In this document: one piece after another, positions 20,841-31,021 of the stretch
How positions within the stretch are numbered: position 1 is the stretch's first letter
Layout of the letters: each line of letters starts with the position of its first letter
Virus record (IMG/VR): IMGVR_UViG_3300022074_000125
Coordinates: 1 to 39,515 of that record
Origin: a virus
Reading direction: 5' to 3' (one strand)
Length of the DNA stretch: 39,515 nt
Made by a program: the position numbers and the translations under genes
Notes under the pieces: model-generated
The model's input: only the letters and a program-made list of their open reading frames with translations
What the model was told of the DNA's origin: nothing
Database searches by the model: none

Positions 20841-21466
20841 CAGAAGATAAAAATATTATACTTGTCGGAAATTCAGTAGAGATGCTGGAGTATGAGTATG
20901 GGGAGTATATAGAAAACTTTGATACAATTGTACGATTTGGAAATGGTATACCTGATGAACATACTGAAAGTCTTGGTATTCGTACTGATATATGGATTAC
21001 AGGGTGGCTTCGTGCAGTAAAGGTAAAATATTTTCCAACTGCGTATAAATTATTCAATCGTTGCAGAATACACCTCGATATACAACCAAAAGACCTAACT
21101 CCACCTTTTGAGCATGAAACTATGTTTAATGATGATGAATTAAAAAAGATTTATAAAATGGTGGGAGCTGAAAACAATGTTAAAATGGGAAATAGGCCAA
21201 GTGCAGGTTTCTTAGGTATATTATTCTTTTTAACTAAAACCAATCCTAAGTCAATTACTCTAATTGGCTTTGACTTTTTCTCTAAGAAACTACCATTTAA
21301 AAGTGGTAACGATTACCCTTCTAGTTGGCATTTACCACACAACTCTCAAGAGTCTAGTCCTCATAATAATATGGAGAAACCTCTTGTACAGAAGTGGGCA
21401 AATGAAGGTAAATTAGAATGGAAAATTCTATCTGATTTGAACGAAGAGTTCTTAGATTTTACCTAG
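20816..21466 (+). CDS. sialyltransferase-like glycosyltransferase (GT29-type motifs)
   Basis: This 216-residue protein has IILVGNSVEML (14-24) and FDTIVRFGNG (35-44), which resemble the sialyl motif L start. PSAGFLGILFFL (128-139) followed by ITLIGFDFF (147-155) resembles motif S. SPHNNMEKP holds a His and Glu (H183, E187) near the motif VS position. GT29 enzymes transfer sialic acid or related nonulosonic acids from CMP donors; the nucleotidyltransferase at 7198 could make a CMP-type donor but looks more like a glycerol/heptose enzyme. No membrane anchor is present, unlike eukaryotic members. ATG 20816 is preferred; a longer frame from 20777 would overlap the upstream gene deeply. The last 15 nt overlap a convergent gene. 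GT42 or a generic GT-B is possible. Confidence 0.6.
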   Translation: MDETLQKLTEDKNIILVGNSVEMLEYEYGEYIENFDTIVRFGNGIPDEHTESLGIRTDIWITGWLRAVKVKYFPTAYKLFNRCRIHLDIQPKDLTPPFEHETMFNDDELKKIYKMVGAENNVKMGNRPSAGFLGILFFLTKTNPKSITLIGFDFFSKKLPFKSGNDYPSSWHLPHNSQESSPHNNMEKPLVQKWANEGKLEWKILSDLNEEFLDFT

Positions 21467-22432
21467 TTTATATCCGACTTCAATTAATTTTCTTGATACT
21501 TGTTTCTGTTTATTTGATTTAAATAATAAAAGTTCGTTGATTCTAGCATTTCTTAAATTTACAGGTATGTTTGGTATCTGTGCAGTCCACAAGTCCCAAG
21601 GTATTCCTAACTGTATTCCTGCTGGTAAGTATTGGTATTTCATCAACAACCATTTTGGTAGAACATGAACACTAAATGATTTTCTCATAATTACATTATG
21701 GTTAATAAAATCTTTTGTGTTTAATGCTTCGTAGGTAAGAAGTTTATCATTTTTGCCATTTACATATACAGGCATTTGTTTTCCTCTATAGCAGAATGGT
21801 GTAAAGAAAGACCTATTCCAACTACCCATAACTCTTCTATCTACATGGTGTGGGTAAAGTATTGGATTTATTCTTGCGTTCTGACCTCGTGCAAATAATC
21901 TTTTTTCATCAAAAGCAACCATTTTATCCCAATTCATAATAAAAAATTCAGTATCAATATTATCTAATACTGGAGTTTCTTTTCTACCTACTTCTTCTTC
22001 CTCAAACATATTGCTTTTAAAACCTAAGATATCATAATACTTTCCGTATGTAGGATGGTCTTTGTATACATTCATATGGGAGTAAGTACAAAATTTATTC
22101 TCAAAATATTTTTCATCAGGTATTTCATTTTTCCACCCGTTTTTTAAGAATATTCTAGCTCCACCTGCATACATAACTCTTTTATTTAAGCCACCTTTAT
22201 TCTTCCAATACTCTTTCAAGTATCTCATGGCTCTGGCTTGTTCTTCTCCTTTCCAAAAACTCTGGTATACTTTTACATTTTCTATATTAGCGAGTGCCCA
22301 TGATACTACATTTTTATCCCAGTCATCTTCGTGGATAAATAAATGCAAGCGAAAGTCCTCGTCCTTCTCAATTAGAGAGGCAAGTGTAAATAAACTAAAG
22401 TGTTTTATGTATGTATGTACTATCTCAATCAT
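21452..22432 (-). CDS. hypothetical protein, possible glycosyltransferase
   Basis: This 326-residue protein is not firmly recognised. The N-terminus (MIEIVHTYIKHFSLFTLASLIEKD, then LHLFIHEDDWD and NVKVYQSFW) alternates strand and helix like a Rossmann/GT domain. VMYAGGARIFLKNGW and TEFFIMNWDKMVAFDEKR follow, and the C-terminal part is Arg/Lys-rich. No DxD or clear nucleotide site is visible, so the transferase call rests on context: it lies just downstream of a gene with KPHP/SE motifs and opposite a glycosyltransferase cluster. It is the last gene of the - strand unit. Its stop overlaps the final 15 nt of the convergent sialyltransferase-like gene, and its start overlaps the preceding gene by 8 nt. 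Confidence 0.65.
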   Translation of the reverse strand: MIEIVHTYIKHFSLFTLASLIEKDEDFRLHLFIHEDDWDKNVVSWALANIENVKVYQSFWKGEEQARAMRYLKEYWKNKGGLNKRVMYAGGARIFLKNGWKNEIPDEKYFENKFCTYSHMNVYKDHPTYGKYYDILGFKSNMFEEEEVGRKETPVLDNIDTEFFIMNWDKMVAFDEKRLFARGQNARINPILYPHHVDRRVMGSWNRSFFTPFCYRGKQMPVYVNGKNDKLLTYEALNTKDFINHNVIMRKSFSVHVLPKWLLMKYQYLPAGIQLGIPWDLWTAQIPNIPVNLRNARINELLLFKSNKQKQVSRKLIEVGYKLGKI

Positions 22433-23330
22433 CTTCTTTTTTATATTCCCAAAAATTATTTATAAACCTTTCTAGTCTTTCCTCTGCATCTTCATCAAAA
22501 TCAAATATAATTCCTGAATTTTTTGCTGATAAAATCTTCTTTATCGTATTTGATGCTTTAGTTCCTGCTACGGCATGGTAAATGCTTTCGTATGTTAATA
22601 AATTTTTCTCTCTTTCTTTCTTAGAATGACTTATCATCCTAAGTTGTTTGTTTAATAATAATGCTACTATTCCCATTTCACTATTTGGCATTGTAGCAAC
22701 CTCTTTGCAGTTGTATAAAATTTCATGTCCACTTTGTTTTTTATTTAATACTTTATCTGCTCCAAAATCTTTTTTGAATTTAGCCATGTAAAGTGCATTA
22801 GTAATAGGATGAGGTTTTATAACATAACCCTCTTTTACAAAGTTTCTCATTCTACCCCAGTGTATAACTCTATCTTTACATATTAAATTACTACCTGGTG
22901 GAAAAATTACTTTATCGTAATGTTCTTGTGTTTTTGCTAAAATGTATTTATCTTCTATACAATTTAGTATTTTTTCTATTCTTTCTTCGTCAATCTCTAT
23001 GTCCGACTTAGCAATAGATATCATTAACTTATCGTTAATTTTTACAGAATTTGTTTTTACATAAATTCCTCTACCTAAAAAATCTGTGTATAACCACTTT
23101 CGTATTGTAAATAATTCATTTGTGTTAAACCATACGTCATATTCAAATCTAACACCTTCTTTCCAGTCTGGTATTAGTCTTTTTTTAAAATTCAATAATG
23201 CGTCTCTTTGATGGTCAGGTCTATAACAAGACCCTGATTTCATAAAGTGAGTAACCTTGTCTCCAAGACTCTCATTACTTGCCATAGGAACTAATTTATC
23301 TTTTTTAACTTTTACTGTTTTTAATTCCAT
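22425..23330 (-). CDS. GT-B/capsule-type glycosyltransferase-like protein
   Basis: This 301-residue protein's C-terminal half carries two features of the bacterial polysialyltransferase, KpsC/KpsS and TagF-like superfamily. One is GYVIKPHP (168-175), with the conserved His-Pro that contacts the donor phosphate. The other is MPNSEMGIVALLLNKQL (214-230), with the Ser-Glu pair followed by a helix and a lysine. Between them lies DFGADKVLNKKQSGHEILYNC. In the family these motifs bind CMP- or CDP-linked donors such as CMP-Kdo, CMP-sialic acid or CDP-glycerol. The N-terminal 130 residues are unassigned. A cytidylyl-donor enzyme would pair well with the nucleotidyltransferase at 7198. The start at 23330 lies within the end of the 54-residue coiled-coil gene (26-nt overlap). 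Confidence 0.55.
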   Translation of the reverse strand: MELKTVKVKKDKLVPMASNESLGDKVTHFMKSGSCYRPDHQRDALLNFKKRLIPDWKEGVRFEYDVWFNTNELFTIRKWLYTDFLGRGIYVKTNSVKINDKLMISIAKSDIEIDEERIEKILNCIEDKYILAKTQEHYDKVIFPPGSNLICKDRVIHWGRMRNFVKEGYVIKPHPITNALYMAKFKKDFGADKVLNKKQSGHEILYNCKEVATMPNSEMGIVALLLNKQLRMISHSKKEREKNLLTYESIYHAVAGTKASNTIKKILSAKNSGIIFDFDEDAEERLERFINNFWEYKKEDD

Positions 23331-23469: not shown

Positions 23470-26400
23470 TTAGTCTGTCCATGTTGAACCGTCCCAGTAA
23501 CTTGCACTAAAGTCGTTTATACTTGCAACTTCTGTGTCAAAGATTGTACCCGCCTGAGACGCTGTTATTCTTTCAAATACTGTGGTACTCGTATTAAATG
23601 TAGTTGTGGTAATATGGTCAGTTGTTCTAGTTGTTTCTGTTACATTACCTGTGGCAAATGTTGTGGTTGTTGTTTTGCCTGTTTCAAATTCTGTTGTTCT
23701 AGTTGTTTCAAAAGTAGTAGTCGTATCGTAAGCTGTATTCTTAGAAGTAGTAGTAGACCTATCTGTTTCAAATGTAGATACTGTACTTCTGCTTGATGCT
23801 GTATCTCTTGCAGTAAGTGTTGCTCTAGCTGTATTAAATGTACTTGTAGTTTCTCTGCTAGATTGTGTTGCTCTAGAGGTTATTGTTCCTTTAGTTGTGG
23901 CATATACTGTTGTTGTATCTCTACTTGTTAAAGTTCCTCTAGCTGTATTAAATGTTGTTGTCGTATCTCTAGATGTTCCTGTTACTCTTTGTGAACCTCT
24001 ACTTGTTAAGTATGCTGTTTCATACGCTGTACTTCTACTTGTATTAGTATTTCTAGTTGTTCCAAATGAGGTATTATCTACGTATGCTGTTGTTCTTGAA
24101 GTTTCTGTTCCTCTACTTGTATTAGTACTTCTACTTGTGTTTGTGGCTCTACTTGTTACAAATACTGTATTATCTACATACGCTGTTGTGTAATTTGTAT
24201 TTACTAAGAATACAGTAGTGAAGTTAGTGCTATCTACATATGCGGTTGTTCTACTTGTATTTGTACTTCTTGTAGTTGAGAATGATGTATTATCTACATA
24301 TGCTGTTGTTCTACTTGTGTCTGTAGTTTTAGAAGTATTCGTAGACTGTGTAGTTGTATAAGCTGTTTCGTTTGTGAAGCCTGTGTTGTCTACATAAGCT
24401 GTTGCAAATGAAGTGTTGTCTACATAAGCGGTTGTTCTAGAAGTGTTTGTATTTCTTGTTGTACCAAATGAGGTATTATCTACATATGCTGTTGAGAATG
24501 ATGTATTATCTACATATGCTGTTGTTCTAGAAGTGTTCGTACTTCTTGTAGTACCAAATGAAGTGTTATCTACATATGCTGTTGAGAATGATGTATTATC
24601 TACATATGCTGTTGTTCTACTTGTGTTCGTACTTCTTGTAGTACCAAATGAAGTGTTATCAACATAAGCTGTTGTAAATGTTGTGTTATAAGAAGTAGAA
24701 TTTGTAAACCCTGTATTTCTACTTGTGTTCGTTGCCTGTGTAGTTGTATAAGCAGTAGAGTTTGTAAATCCTGTATTTCTACTTGTGTTTGTAGCTTGTG
24801 TAGTTGTTCTACTTGTATTCGTGTTTCTAGAGGTATTCGTATTTCTGCTTGTGTTCGTTGCCTGTGTAGTATTATAAGCAGTATTTCTAGAGGTATTTGT
24901 ATTTCTGCTTGTGTTCGTTGCCTGTGTAGTATTATAAGCAGTAGAGTTTGTAAATGATGTATTTCTACTTGTATTTGTATTTCTAGAAGTATTTGTGTTA
25001 TAAGAAGTAGAATTTGTAAATGATGTATTTCTACTTGTATTAGTACTTTCAGTAGTATTGTAAGAAGTATTTCTAGTACCCCCACCAGTAGTTCTAGTTG
25101 TATTTACTGACCTAAATGCTGAACTTGCTGAAGTACCTGTTCTTCTTTGATAAGTTCCAGAGTACCCTGAGTTAAATCCACCGCCCCAACCGCTGTAATA
25201 ATTTCCTCCACCACTCCAGGATACTGTAGTAACTCTGTTATAGTAGAATGTTAAGTATGTAGTACTATTTCCAAATGCTGTTGACCTTGTTGTTGCTCTA
25301 GCAGTATTATTGTCGAAGTCTGTACTTCTACTTGTGTTAGTGTTTCTACTTGTACTATTTGTAAAGCCTGTGCTGTCTACATATGCAGTGCCTCTACTTG
25401 TATTTGTATTTCTGCTTGTTCCAAATGATGTATTATCTACATATGCAGTAGAGTTTGTAAATCCTGTGCCTCTACTTGTTCCGAATGAAGTGTTGTCTAC
25501 ATATGCTGTACTATTTGTAAATGAGGTAGAGTTTGTAAATGAAGTACTAAAAGATGTATTATCTACATATGCGGTGCTTCTACTTGTGTTAGTGTTTCTA
25601 CTTGTTCCAAATGATGTGTTGTCTACATATGCAGTGCCTCTACTTGTATTAGTATTTCTTGTTGTACCTCTTGTTGTGTCTCTTGATGTATTTGTTGCTT
25701 GTGTAGTTGTATAAGAAGTATTGTTACTAAATCCTGTACTTCTAGAAGTATTTGTTGCCTGTGTAGTAGTTCTAGAAGTGTTTGTGGCTTGTGTAGTATT
25801 GTAACTTGTGTTATTAGTAAATCCAGTGCTTCTTGATGTATTCGTAGACTGTGTAGTTGTTCTACTTGTATTTGTAGATTGTGTTGTTGTATATGCTGTT
25901 TCGTTTGTAAAACTTGTGCTTCTACTTGTGTTTGTAGATTGCGTAGTTGTTCTACTTGTATTTGTACTTCTGCTTGTGTTTGTATTTCTTGTTGTACCAA
26001 ATGACGTATTATCTACATATGCTGTTGTTGTTCCAAATACAGTAGTTCTGGAAGTATTTGTTGCTTGTGTAGTTGTATAAGAAGTATTGTTACTAAATCC
26101 TGTACTTCTACTTGTGTTAGTGTTTCTACTTGTAGTTACACTTGTATTAGAAGCTCTAGAAGTTGTTCTACTTGTATTTGTAGATTGTGTAGTATCATAA
26201 CTTGTATTATTCGTAAATCCTGTGTTATCTACATATGCGGTTGCAGTATTATATACAGTAGTTCTAGAAGTATTTGTTGCCTGTGTGGTTGTATACGCTG
26301 TTTGGTTTGTAAACCCTGTAGACCTAGACGTACCAATTACAGTATCAAAACTTGTAACATATGTTGTAGTTGTATTGTAGTTGGTAGTGGTGCTACGTGC

Positions 26401-26922
26401 GGTATTAAAGGTGGTAGTAGTTGTATACGTTGTAGTAGTATCTTTACTTGTTTCAAATGTTGTTGTAGTTGTATACGCTGTTGTAGTATTAAATACTGTT
26501 GTAGTACCTTGTGTAGTTGTAAAGGTAGTTGTAGTATTGAATGTTGTAGTAGTTGTAAATAGAGTTGTAGTTGTAGTGGTTGTATTATATGTTGTAGTCG
26601 TATTATGAGTAGTGCTTCTACTTGTATTCGTAGCTCTATCCGTATCAAATGTTGTTACTCTATCTGTGTTATATGTTGTTGTTGTGTCACGAGTTGTATC
26701 AAATCCAGTAGTCGTATTAAACGCTGTTACCTGTACACCTGATATGGTAGTTCTAGCTGTTGCTGTATTTCTTGAAGTTTCATGAACGACAGAAAATGGC
26801 CCTTCTAGAGCGCCACTATCGTTTACGTATACTTCATTAACCCTTCGTATTGTGCCATTATCGTTGATGGCGAGAAAGGATATCTGACGTAATGTACCAT
26901 TGTCATTAACATATATTGCCAT
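23470..26922 (-). CDS. giant Thr/Ser/Asn/Arg-rich repeat protein, probable tail adhesin
   Basis: This 1150-residue protein is nearly all low-complexity repeat. A 45-residue head holds three copies of a VNDxG(T/A)(L/I)-type unit (IYVNDNGTL, LAINDNGTI, VYVNDSGAL). The body follows a strict two-residue alternation: small residues (S, N, A, G, T) at one parity; Thr, Arg, aromatic or Gln at the other. Anchors (SR, TQ, AY, SF, GF) are spaced 4 then 6 residues, giving a 10-residue period, as in AYVDNTSFGT and TQATNTSRST. Near the middle is a Gly/Tyr/Trp-rich break (VSWSGGGNYYSGWGGG). The tail ends non-repetitive, DFSASYWDGSTWTD. The alternation predicts a beta fibre or solenoid. N-x-S/T tripeptides are very dense. 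Position among fibre genes suggests an adhesin. No named family is recognised. Confidence 0.85.
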   Translation of the reverse strand: MAIYVNDNGTLRQISFLAINDNGTIRRVNEVYVNDSGALEGPFSVVHETSRNTATARTTISGVQVTAFNTTTGFDTTRDTTTTYNTDRVTTFDTDRATNTSRSTTHNTTTTYNTTTTTTTLFTTTTTFNTTTTFTTTQGTTTVFNTTTAYTTTTTFETSKDTTTTYTTTTTFNTARSTTTNYNTTTTYVTSFDTVIGTSRSTGFTNQTAYTTTQATNTSRTTVYNTATAYVDNTGFTNNTSYDTTQSTNTSRTTSRASNTSVTTSRNTNTSRSTGFSNNTSYTTTQATNTSRTTVFGTTTAYVDNTSFGTTRNTNTSRSTNTSRTTTQSTNTSRSTSFTNETAYTTTQSTNTSRTTTQSTNTSRSTGFTNNTSYNTTQATNTSRTTTQATNTSRSTGFSNNTSYTTTQATNTSRDTTRGTTRNTNTSRGTAYVDNTSFGTSRNTNTSRSTAYVDNTSFSTSFTNSTSFTNSTAYVDNTSFGTSRGTGFTNSTAYVDNTSFGTSRNTNTSRGTAYVDSTGFTNSTSRNTNTSRSTDFDNNTARATTRSTAFGNSTTYLTFYYNRVTTVSWSGGGNYYSGWGGGFNSGYSGTYQRRTGTSASSAFRSVNTTRTTGGGTRNTSYNTTESTNTSRNTSFTNSTSYNTNTSRNTNTSRNTSFTNSTAYNTTQATNTSRNTNTSRNTAYNTTQATNTSRNTNTSRNTNTSRTTTQATNTSRNTGFTNSTAYTTTQATNTSRNTGFTNSTSYNTTFTTAYVDNTSFGTTRSTNTSRTTAYVDNTSFSTAYVDNTSFGTTRSTNTSRTTAYVDNTSFSTAYVDNTSFGTTRNTNTSRTTAYVDNTSFATAYVDNTGFTNETAYTTTQSTNTSKTTDTSRTTAYVDNTSFSTTRSTNTSRTTAYVDSTNFTTVFLVNTNYTTAYVDNTVFVTSRATNTSRSTNTSRGTETSRTTAYVDNTSFGTTRNTNTSRSTAYETAYLTSRGSQRVTGTSRDTTTTFNTARGTLTSRDTTTVYATTKGTITSRATQSSRETTSTFNTARATLTARDTASSRSTVSTFETDRSTTTSKNTAYDTTTTFETTRTTEFETGKTTTTTFATGNVTETTRTTDHITTTTFNTSTTVFERITASQAGTIFDTEVASINDFSASYWDGSTWTD
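24391..24660. repeat. three tandem 90-bp repeats in the Thr-rich gene
   Basis: Units 24391-24480, 24481-24570 and 24571-24660 align without indels. The second and third differ at only a few positions, where TCT AGA alternates with AGT AGA for the same Ser-Arg pair; the first is more diverged. Each encodes 30 residues, i.e. three 10-residue periods containing two AYVDNTSF segments and one TNTSR segment. The surrounding gene (about 23700-26700) carries many shorter imperfect copies. Confidence 0.9.
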
Positions 26923-27148: not shown

Positions 27149-30100
27149 TTATACCTCTATTGTTGTTCTTATGAACTTGTATGCCATTGTGTCTCCACTT
27201 GCTGGCGTTACTCTTAATCTTACGTTACCCGCACTTACGTCTGCATCAAATGTTGCTTGTGCTCCATTGTCGAATATAGATGCGTACTGTGTTAAGTACA
27301 CATCTGACCCATCATGGAATAGGAAAATTTCTAATGCTTGATAATCTGAATCTGTTGTGTTTTTAATCTGTACTACATATTTAGCAGTTCTAAATACAGT
27401 AGTTGCAAAACTATCTAGTGTAAATGTCGTTGTTGCAGATGAACTTCCTGTACCTACGTCCATACCAGCTACTTCGTCTATATGAAGTTTTTGTGGTGGA
27501 GAACCATCTTGAATACCAAGGCTACCGCCTACGTTCTGTACTGTTCCAGTATCTCCTAAGAATAAGTTTCCTGTGAAACCTATTGTACCTGACATAAACT
27601 TGCCTGATAAAGCTGAACTTATTAATTGTGTAGAAGTTACAGAGTTATTTGCAATCTCACTTGAACCAACAGCGTTTGCTGCTATTTTACTGGCGTCTAT
27701 AGCATTGTCTTGAATCTTTGCAGTTGCTACTGAATTACCAGCTAATTGTGCTGTATTAATTAGAGCATCTTGTATAAAGTCAACACTATTAATTGCATTT
27801 GCAGCTAGTTGTGTTGCTGTGATAGAAGCGTTTGGTATTTTTGCAGAAGTAATAGCATTATCAGCTATCTCTACTGCTGTTATTGTACCATTTGGTATTT
27901 TAGCACCTGATACAGAGTTATCAGCTAATTTACCTACTGTTACTGCTCCTGTGCCTATTTGTTGTTCTGTTACTGCACCTGAAGCTATTTTGTTTACTGT
28001 TACGGAGTTAGAACCAAGTTTTGCTTCTGTTACAGAACCAGTTGATAAATGAGTAGCATCTATACTTCCTGTTACTAACTCTGCTGAATCTACTGAGTTA
28101 TCAGCAATATGTCTGGATAGTACAGCGTCTGTTGCAAGTTTGGTAGCATCTATTGAGTTGTCAGCCATATTGCCTGTAGCAATAGTGTTGGCTGCTATTT
28201 TTCCTGTTGTGACCGAGGCGTCTGCTAGATGCTCGTTATCTATACTTCCTGCAATATAATGTTCTGAATTTATAACATCATCTGCTATTTTTGTGCCGTC
28301 TACTATGTCTGCGGCTAAATGTATTCTGTCTATGCTTCCTGTGACAAGTTCTGAACTGTCTACAGAGTTGGCGGCTAGTTCACTTGAACCTACAGCTCCA
28401 GCTGTTATTTTTGCTGCAGTTACTGAATTTGCTGCTATTCTAGGTTCTGTTACAGCATTAGCTGCTATATGTATAGTATCTATGCTTCCTGAAACAAGTT
28501 CTGAACTATCTACTGAATTTGCGGCAAGTTCTGAAGCACCTACTGCTCCAGCTGCTATATGTGATGCATCGATAACATCTGTACCAATCTTGTTAGCATT
28601 TATTGCGTTATTTGCAATGTTTGGGCCTGTAACTGTTAATCCTGCTATTTTAGCTCCAGTAACTGCGTCATCTGCTAAATGTATAGTGTCTATACTACCT
28701 GTTACTAACTCTGCTGAATCTACTGAGTTTGCTGCTAGTTCACTTGCTGTTATGCTTCCTGCGACTATCTTATTTGCATTTACTGTGTTATCTGCAATCG
28801 CACTCGCTGTTCCTGTTAAGTTACCTGTAACATTTCCTTCTAAGTCTGCTACTAGAGTTCCTTTTGTTATTGTTAGGTCGCCTGTGGAAGCACCAGTAAA
28901 TGAACCAGTACCCATTTTAAATTTGTTTCCACTTTCATCAAATCCCATAAATGCATTATCATTGTCGCCTCTTTCCATAACGATACCCATATCATTTGAT
29001 GGAACTCCTGTTGTTCCTGTACCAAGTTCTAGTACATGGTCAGCGATTGTTGTAGTGGTTGAATTAACTGTTGTTGTTGTACCGTTTACTGTTAAGTTTC
29101 CTGAAAGTGTAACATTTCCTGTGAATGTTTGACCACCTAATGCATCTGATTTAAGTTCAGAAGCTGATACTGCATTTGCTGATATTTCACTGTTACCAAC
29201 TGAGTTTGCGGCTATCTTTGCTCCTGTTACAGCATTGCCTGCTATATGTATTGCATCAATAGAGCCAGAGATTAATTCTGCGCTGTCTACTGAATTGTCT
29301 GCTAGTTCGCTTGAACCAACAGCACCTGCATTGATGTGTTTTGCTAATATTTGGTCTGTTGCAATTTTTGCTGAAGTAACTTGGTTAGCTGCGATATGTA
29401 TTGTGTCAATACTACCAGTTGCTATTTCTGAACTATCTATTGAGTTTTCAGCTATATGTGTTACATCTATAACACCTGTACCTATCTTTGCAGCAGTGAT
29501 TGAGTTATTTCCTAAATGTATAGTATCTATACTACCTGTTACTAACTCTGCTGAATCTACTGAATTAGCTCCTAAGTGGTCTGCTGTTATTGTTGCTGTA
29601 GGTATATGTCTTGCAACGATTGAATTCTGTGCTATCTTAGTTCCGTCTACTGCGTTATCTGCAATATTGGCTAAGGCTATTGTATTGGCGGCTATTTTTG
29701 CGCCTGTTACTTGTAAGTTTCCTATATGTGCAGTATCTATACTACCATCTACAAGATGTTCTGAATCTATAGAGTCATCAGCGATTTTTGAGCCACTTAC
29801 TGCATCCGCTCCTATTTTTCCACTAGTTACTGCTCCTGTACCTATTTTTGCTTCTGTTACTTGTGAAGCTCCAATATGTATAGTATCAATGCTACCTGAT
29901 ACAAGTTCAGAACTATCAATAGAGTTTGCAGCTATTTGTGTAGAACCTACACTATTAATTCCTACATTGGAACTATTTACTATTGCTTTCCAACCCATGT
30001 TACCATGTGCTGAACATTGGTAATACAATATTTGAGGAGTAGTGTCTGTAACGGCAATTTCTGTGTATGCACCTGAACTTCCTGCTGTTCCGTTATTTGT

Positions 30101-31021
30101 AACTCCTGTAGTATAAGCCGTTGTTTTATTGGCTTCTAAATAAAATCTGAAAGGATGGTTAGCGTTTGACGAGTCATCTTGCTTAAATTTATAGGTATTC
30201 CCGGGTTGTAATACTAATACTGGAGACTCTTTGCCTTCGAACTTATATCCTAGAGTGCTACCATTTCCGTAGTCACCGTGTGCGGAAGTTTTTGTAATAA
30301 CCGTTACATCATATTCATAAGTTCCAAATTCTTGAATTGATTTTGCGTTCTTGTGTATTTCACTTGAAGTAACATTATCAGCAACTATTTTTGCTGTACT
30401 CACTGAATTTGTGCTTAGTTTTGCACCTGTTACTTGTAAAGCTCCAATATGTATAGTGTCAATACTACCTGTTACTAGTTCGCTAGAGTCTACTGAGTTT
30501 GCGCCAAGTTGTGTTGAAGTAATACTCCCATCAGCAATATGATGAGCAGTAACTGCATTTTGGGCAATCCTCGCTGTTGTTATTTGATTTTCAGCAATTT
30601 TAACTGTGGTTATAGCATTGTCAGCTACTTGTAATGTTTCGATTGCATTTGTGGCTATCTCTGAAGTATCTACTGAGTTTGCAGCTATTTCGTTGGAAGT
30701 GATAGCGTTAGCAGCTAGTTTGGCTGTTGTGACTTGTCCTGTTCCAATATGAATAGTATCAATAGAACCACTTACTAACTCACTTGAATCTACTGAGTTT
30801 GCAGCGATACCTGCATTTGTTACTGAATTATCTCCTACGCCTGTAACTGCTGTTGCTTGTAGCTGTGCAGCTCCAACAGAGTTTGTAGCAAGTTCTGAGG
30901 CGCTAATAGAATTAACTGCTATTTCAGAGGCACTAATAGCATTTGCAGCTATCTTTGATGCTACCACACTATTGTTTCCTATTGAATCTTGTTGTACTAA
31001 AAATTTACCGATTAGTGGCAT
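27149..31021 (-). CDS. 1290-residue tail fibre with 5/10-residue repeats
   Basis: Most of the protein is built from units such as IAANSVDSSE and LVSGSIDTIH, with a hydrophobic residue every fifth position and a dominant 10-residue period. Repeats of this type are widespread in phage fibres and bacterial surface proteins and probably form a beta-helical or trimeric rod. Two insertions interrupt it. A cupredoxin-like domain spans residues about 229-351. A segment with LSGNLTVNGTTTTVN and LELGTGTTGVPSNDMGIVMERG, common in marine phage fibres, falls near residues 630-730. The C-terminal 140 residues (FTGNLFLGDTGTV ... YQALEIFLFHDGSDVYLTQY ... TPASGDTMAYKFIRT) are a globular tip typical of such fibres. 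The rod would reach host surface receptors. Confidence 0.85.
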   Translation of the reverse strand: MPLIGKFLVQQDSIGNNSVVASKIAANAISASEIAVNSISASELATNSVGAAQLQATAVTGVGDNSVTNAGIAANSVDSSELVSGSIDTIHIGTGQVTTAKLAANAITSNEIAANSVDTSEIATNAIETLQVADNAITTVKIAENQITTARIAQNAVTAHHIADGSITSTQLGANSVDSSELVTGSIDTIHIGALQVTGAKLSTNSVSTAKIVADNVTSSEIHKNAKSIQEFGTYEYDVTVITKTSAHGDYGNGSTLGYKFEGKESPVLVLQPGNTYKFKQDDSSNANHPFRFYLEANKTTAYTTGVTNNGTAGSSGAYTEIAVTDTTPQILYYQCSAHGNMGWKAIVNSSNVGINSVGSTQIAANSIDSSELVSGSIDTIHIGASQVTEAKIGTGAVTSGKIGADAVSGSKIADDSIDSEHLVDGSIDTAHIGNLQVTGAKIAANTIALANIADNAVDGTKIAQNSIVARHIPTATITADHLGANSVDSAELVTGSIDTIHLGNNSITAAKIGTGVIDVTHIAENSIDSSEIATGSIDTIHIAANQVTSAKIATDQILAKHINAGAVGSSELADNSVDSAELISGSIDAIHIAGNAVTGAKIAANSVGNSEISANAVSASELKSDALGGQTFTGNVTLSGNLTVNGTTTTVNSTTTTIADHVLELGTGTTGVPSNDMGIVMERGDNDNAFMGFDESGNKFKMGTGSFTGASTGDLTITKGTLVADLEGNVTGNLTGTASAIADNTVNANKIVAGSITASELAANSVDSAELVTGSIDTIHLADDAVTGAKIAGLTVTGPNIANNAINANKIGTDVIDASHIAAGAVGASELAANSVDSSELVSGSIDTIHIAANAVTEPRIAANSVTAAKITAGAVGSSELAANSVDSSELVTGSIDRIHLAADIVDGTKIADDVINSEHYIAGSIDNEHLADASVTTGKIAANTIATGNMADNSIDATKLATDAVLSRHIADNSVDSAELVTGSIDATHLSTGSVTEAKLGSNSVTVNKIASGAVTEQQIGTGAVTVGKLADNSVSGAKIPNGTITAVEIADNAITSAKIPNASITATQLAANAINSVDFIQDALINTAQLAGNSVATAKIQDNAIDASKIAANAVGSSEIANNSVTSTQLISSALSGKFMSGTIGFTGNLFLGDTGTVQNVGGSLGIQDGSPPQKLHIDEVAGMDVGTGSSSATTTFTLDSFATTVFRTAKYVVQIKNTTDSDYQALEIFLFHDGSDVYLTQYASIFDNGAQATFDADVSAGNVRLRVTPASGDTMAYKFIRTTIEV
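29966..30337 (-). other. cupredoxin-like domain within the fibre gene
   Basis: Residues about 229-351 of the fibre read as a beta-sandwich: EYDVTVITKTSAHGDYG, LVLQPGNTYKFKQDD, NHPFRFYLE, and ILYYQCSAHGNMGW. H289 (NHP), C336, H339 and M342 (CxxHxxM) reproduce the His, Cys, His, Met ligand order of type 1 copper proteins, with a spacing slightly shorter than plastocyanin's CxxHxxxxM. Similar HPF/CSxHxxMG blocks are known in marine phage structural proteins. Metal binding is untested. Confidence 0.6.

Follow-up and report, generated by a model that had tools for sequence, protein, structure and literature searches.

The 1150-residue threonine-rich protein encoded by a single open frame on the minus strand (positions 23470..26922) of a 39,515-nucleotide stretch of viral DNA (IMG/VR record IMGVR_UViG_3300022074_000125, positions 1 to 39,515; hereafter the window) is very probably an out-and-back antiparallel beta fibre, that is, one long, zipped-up beta-hairpin whose tip falls midway along the sequence, probably trimeric. 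In this study, we provide evidence that the two halves of the protein mirror each other around an internal axis, with aromatic residues of one half set opposite Arg, Lys or Gln of the other, and that this arrangement is kept in complete relatives on many other contigs.

Five parts were recognized in the protein, all encoded on the minus strand. The N-terminal base domain (residues 1-50, MAIYVNDNGTLRQ.., 26773..26922) was delimited by alignment, has about 86% mean column identity in the aligned relatives and has no match among 50,697 phage records. It is followed by the outgoing arm (residues 51-555, 25258..26772), an alternating strand of Thr and anchor residues identified by residue parity and mirror pairing, and by a Gly/aromatic-rich tip (residues 556-620, WSGGGNYYSGWGGGFNSGYSGTY, 25063..25257) in which the mirror axis falls at residue 583.5. 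The returning arm (residues 621-1105, 23608..25062) mirrors the outgoing arm, with complementary anchor classes, and the C-terminal base domain (residues 1106-1150, ..ERITASQAGTIFDTEV..SYWDGSTW, 23473..23607) was again delimited by alignment. The tip differs among relatives and is frequently a short DPE-x-GT turn; in L091, L112, L139 and L150 a short turn of this kind lies exactly on the axis, and the window has a long Gly/aromatic tip. Thr accounts for 397 of the 1150 residues (35%), His for only 3, and the translation contains 92 N-x-S/T sequons and no HxH motif.

A two-residue alternation of small residues with Thr and anchor residues had been described in the initial annotation, and this alternation is real. 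Anchors were defined as R/Y/F/Q/K and divided into two classes, aromatic (F/Y/W) and R/K/Q; their parity is near absolute, with 92:1 in the N arm and 93:2 in the C arm, and small residues occupy the opposite parity (161:20 and 161:22 in the two arms). The 4+6 spacing code proposed at the same time stands for the gaps themselves, 181 of the 207 gaps between successive anchors in residues 51-1100 being 6 (98) or 4 (83) residues long, but the 10-residue period is only approximate, since runs of 6-6 and 4-4 are frequent; the parity is also reversed beyond an interruption at about residues 555-620, the site of the mirror axis. The irregular order of the two gaps is what carries the information, since the second half has the order of the first half reversed; this mirror symmetry, together with the pairing code, had been overlooked. 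A gap grammar was also found within the arms of 13 relatives, in which a gap of 4 mostly switches anchor class (677 vs 141) and a gap of 6 mostly keeps it (961 vs 308).

When residue i is set against residue 1167-i, 90-91 arm anchors stand opposite anchors, with about 19-20 expected, and the facing pairs are all complementary, aromatic against Arg/Lys/Gln (91 of 91 at wider limits, about 10 complementary pairs expected). The pair types seen are F-R, R-Y, Y-R, R-F, Q-F and F-Q, with a few involving K; one extra mirrored anchor match, near the tip, is same-class. A shift by 10 residues either way still places about 70 anchors opposite anchors, with about 20 complementary pairs against 48 same-class pairs at that slip, and a slip of 6 yields about 45 complementary pairs but leaves more than 100 anchors opposite a non-anchor, thus spacing and class together define a single register. 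The mirror peak reaches 4.75 times expectation versus a maximum of 2.95 times for parallel pairing, and permutation of the gap order within each arm gave no more than 53 mirrored anchors in 1000 trials versus 92 observed. A null based on rotation of the C arm was discounted, because rotation mostly only moves the axis and is hence unfair. At the level of sequence, mirror and complementarity far beyond chance are established, and both were repeated in relatives found later.

Relatives were collected from IMG/VR contigs by a whole-protein search followed by an N-terminal profile search, which gave many loci; the N-terminal profile search of bacterial and archaeal genomes found no relatives. All 55 distinct complete relatives, 742-1621 amino acids long, have their best axis 7.5-9.0 residues past mid-length (about L/2+8), and the stretches before and after the axis are almost perfectly correlated in length (r=0.99998), with a constant difference of 15.98 +/- 0.84 residues. 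A still longer protein, L124 (from 6001), exceeds 2050 residues, is cut by the locus end and would be the longest of the family. Complementary to same-class pairs number, for example, 129:0 in L054, 124:0 in L071 and 88:0 in L020, and in 25 non-redundant proteins 1658 pairs are complementary (219 expected), with 36 same-class. A later C-terminal profile search added 25 proteins, 24 of them full-length, and the mirror rule is obeyed by 24 of 24; the remaining protein starts at an internal Met.

The same result was obtained when anchor class played no part in the alignment. Class-blind gapped antiparallel alignment of the two arms in the 25 non-redundant proteins gave 1877 complementary and 86 same-class pairs, versus 987:791 for parallel alignment of the same arms and 986:614 for chimeras made of arms from different relatives. 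In the same loci, 328 other long ORFs gave z values of at most 6.0, versus a median of 20.8 for the fibre family. Family members with z below 8 are either cut short by the end of a contig or locus or start internally, with the exception of L187 (7.7). Ungapped scoring under-rated one group of relatives, in which gaps reveal a recurrent one-residue bulge and restore complementarity. In L013, L014, L018, L022 and L093, modules of TALAAV type in the outgoing arm lie opposite a one-residue gap, resembling a recurrent beta-bulge. In the clean group of relatives, R-Y, F-Q, F-K and F-R pairs are about 9 to 14 times commoner than expected and F-T more than 20 times rarer; a few diverged relatives (L097, L108, L110, L115 and L122) fit the simple F/Y/W versus R/K/Q classes less well, and W stands opposite G or Q in diverged relatives. 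Judging from these sequences, size seems to matter besides charge in the pairing preference.

The two arms also change together. Indels between relatives are often mirrored: L020 and L010 differ by 44 residues at -430/+431 and at -320/+321, by 2 residues at -258.5/+258.5 and by 24 residues at about +/-150, and 6 of the 7 N-arm indels between them are matched by one at the mirror position (null mean 0.73, p <= 0.0005). Mirrored indels are significant in many pairs of relatives, not in all, and several distant pairs have none beyond chance, possibly because gaps can be placed in repeats in more than one way. Class changes at aligned anchor pairs occurred on both sides in 248 cases and on one side in 5, counted over pairs of proteins as non-independent events. 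Substitution amounts to 3.3% on the anchor/Thr face and 14.0% on the other face, and this roughly fourfold slower change suggests from sequence comparison that the anchor/Thr face is probably buried, in agreement with the earlier proposal of a beta fibre with a Thr/aromatic/Arg face and a small-residue face. Near-identical fibres that differ by one-sided arm gaps of 20-40 residues were seen in L017 vs L018 and in L036 vs L020; in the latter pair the sole difference is the absence of 30 residues from one arm, which leaves a single unpaired stretch of 30 residues. Such one-sided gaps may represent either assembly collapse of repeats or uncompensated intermediates.

The proposed fold is drawn from features legible in the proteins and their loci, namely the mirror axis, the complementarity, the matched arms, many mirrored indels, the slow face and the conserved ends and neighbours. 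Conserved base domains at both chain ends would anchor the protein; the chain would leave the base as a beta strand of about 500 residues, turn at the variable mid-sequence tip and return antiparallel, bringing the C-terminus back to the base. The Thr/anchor face would be buried and the Asn/Ser/Ala/Gly/Asp face exposed. Each bulky anchor, placed irregularly at every 4 or 6 residues, would face an anchor of the other arm, with F/Y and some W against Arg/Lys/Gln and W frequently opposite Gly, and the resulting aromatic-Arg/Gln rungs, with one or two Thr positions between them, would zip the arms together. The irregular spacing and the two-letter class code allow one register, so the arms could zip without slipping by the near 10-residue period. 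Three chains would then putatively assemble into an antiparallel needle of six strands that resembles the tip of T4 gp37 but has Arg/Gln-aromatic rungs where gp37 has His-iron sites, and host binding would putatively fall to the exposed tip. With a rise of 0.33 nm per residue, the predicted arm length is about 165 nm in this protein and ranges roughly from 105 to 250 nm in the family. An AlphaFold2 model of a monomeric tip fragment (residues 440-727, 14 relatives) had a pLDDT of 36 and a pTM of 0.14 and supports neither the beta structure nor the pairing. On balance, we favour the view that the protein carries a true residue-pairing code, in which complementary chain halves keep to one register along arms of 300-750 residues and both insertions and class changes are mirrored, a logic that is comparable, by analogy, to base pairing in an RNA stem.

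By analogy, the fibre most likely works like the needle of T4 gp37, the closest known architecture. According to a published description (PMC6957217), residues 811-1026 of T4 gp37 likewise run out and back, with a D10 base domain made of both ends (811-881 and 1010-1026), a needle (882-1009) and a mid-sequence tip bearing receptor-binding residues, and opposite arms meet at mirror positions, such as G921 and F970 (sum 1891). The T4 needle measures about 150 x 25 Angstrom in another report (PMC3004832), and its length of about 15 nm fits arms of about 50 residues at 0.33 nm each, the rule applied above; it is about ten times shorter than the fibre here, whose topology may be an extreme of known fibre architecture. 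The axis seen at sequence level, the equal arms and the conserved ends are compatible with the T4 type, in which both ends lie in one base, the tip is in the middle and the arms are antiparallel. The core of T4 gp37 contains HxH-iron sites, whereas the fibre lacks HxH; a mirror scan of T4 gp37, used as positive control, found no facing-anchor code at its known axis; no sequence homology was found between fibre and gp37; and the collar domain PF07484 was not among the Pfam matches, no family being hit at E <= 0.001. Since gp37 lacks the code and the fibre lacks HxH-iron sites and the collar domain, we do not file the fibre as a member of the gp37 family. T5-type L-shaped tail fibres resemble the present case in the T5-like genome context and in a phrog_3304 gene in the cluster, but they have no sequence match to the fibre, which would presumably occupy the same place in the virion.

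It had been suggested that the protein is a beta-solenoid or an ice-binding-like fibre built of 10-residue coils, and the alternating faces, the Thr-rich face and the near 10-residue period are indeed what such a fold would have; as far as general knowledge of these systems goes, Thr-rich ice-binding beta-solenoids share with the fibre a regular Thr array along one face of an alternating strand. However, solenoid coils stack on their sequence neighbours, whereas the mirror axis, the complementarity, the equal arms and the mirrored indels are all long-range, and the irregular order of 4 and 6 gaps leaves no fixed coil. A solenoid gives no reason for mirror-image halves of about 500 residues, for complementary facing residues or for matched lengths, and ice binding finds no support because bulky R/Y/F/Q interrupt the Thr face every 4-6 residues and the face seems buried, thus we consider this explanation highly improbable. 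Still more remote is the idea that the mirror arose from biased mutation or DNA inverted repeats and means nothing for the structure, to which we give next to no credence. Seven weak inverted repeats of 14-28 nt do occur in the gene, but they are short and imperfect and most of them lie away from the axis, F/Y would not come to stand opposite R/Q through reverse-complement coding, the parallel, chimeric and unrelated-ORF controls fail to reproduce the pattern, and the pattern is kept across a twofold range of protein length.

Two further alternatives concern how the chains come together. The same mirror register might be formed between chains, as in an intertwined trimer or a swapped dimer, which would be a variant of the out-and-back fibre. 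We regard this arrangement as possible, if somewhat doubtful: the sequence data do not separate partners within a chain from partners between chains, nothing decisive speaks against it, and G921 of T4 gp37 contacts F970 of another subunit (PMC6957217). A dimer or higher face-to-face ribbon assembly, instead of a six-stranded trimeric needle, has also to be weighed, since a two-stranded ribbon with a buried face needs a partner and a ribbon dimer also buries that face. Against such an assembly, most phage tail fibres with a known structure are trimers. The T4 needle too is a trimer (PMC6957217), and we consider the ribbon assembly unlikely. Of these arrangements, the out-and-back fibre zipped along its own length remains our preferred reading.

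That the protein would belong to no described family had also been claimed, and the searches bear this out: no Pfam or PHROGs family was matched at E <= 0.001, and no match was found among PDB sequences, the 50,697 phage records or annotated tail fibres. A survey of open-access papers found no description of a threonine-rich, palindromic or cation-pi hairpin phage fibre.

Conserved neighbours accompany the fibre gene in most loci. Upstream lies a tail-fibre-like gene (phrog_892; 27149..31021, minus strand), whose protein contains repeated AANSVDSSELVSGSIDTIHIG-like units, and an upstream gene in the same cluster matches phrog_3304, 'L-shaped tail fiber protein assembly'. Downstream, the gene at 22425..23330 (minus strand) encodes a protein with a predicted GT-B fold, nearest to the Kdo transferases KpsC/WbbB: its AlphaFold2 model has a pLDDT of 85, aligns with 6mgc over 215 residues (VIA-align Z 9.4, rmsd 4.2) and matches WbbB in Foldseek at an E of 9.8e-5, and the KPHP and NSE-x-G motifs are invariant. 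The presence of this neighbour and the 92 sequons of the fibre make glycosylation of the fibre by the putative transferase plausible. A second conserved downstream gene (21452..22432, minus strand), with a relative in most fibre loci, has no Pfam or PDB match, and PDB sequence profile searches with both downstream genes gave nothing useful. The terminase of a relative is about 50% identical to those of T5-like phages and the DNA polymerase of the window about 44%, contigs are up to 105 kb long, and no tail sheath was detected; by these sequence comparisons the window belongs to a T5-like phage. The closest matches to its ribonucleotide reductase come from Pelagibacter phages, from which no host follows.

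Strand pairing in proteins is normally not readable from a single sequence. In the fibre it is legible along a stretch of a thousand residues, and the arms evolve in the manner of an RNA stem: insertions in one arm are paired with insertions in the other, and changes on one side are compensated on the opposite side. To our knowledge, no other protein has strand pairing legible from sequence over such a length, and we know of no protein family built on such a residue-pairing code; as far as we can tell, a pairing code that can be read from one sequence and evolves in mirrored fashion is new. The family offers a natural test bed for what sets the register in long beta fibres and a template for the design of addressable beta fibres of selectable length, and the mirror axis with complementary classes provides a simple sequence test for finding further fibres of this kind. 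It also raises the evolutionary question of how an insertion in one arm comes to be matched by another hundreds of residues away. In terms of marine virology, the protein represents a probable host-recognition fibre with a variable mid-sequence tip in a widespread, uncultured T5-like group.
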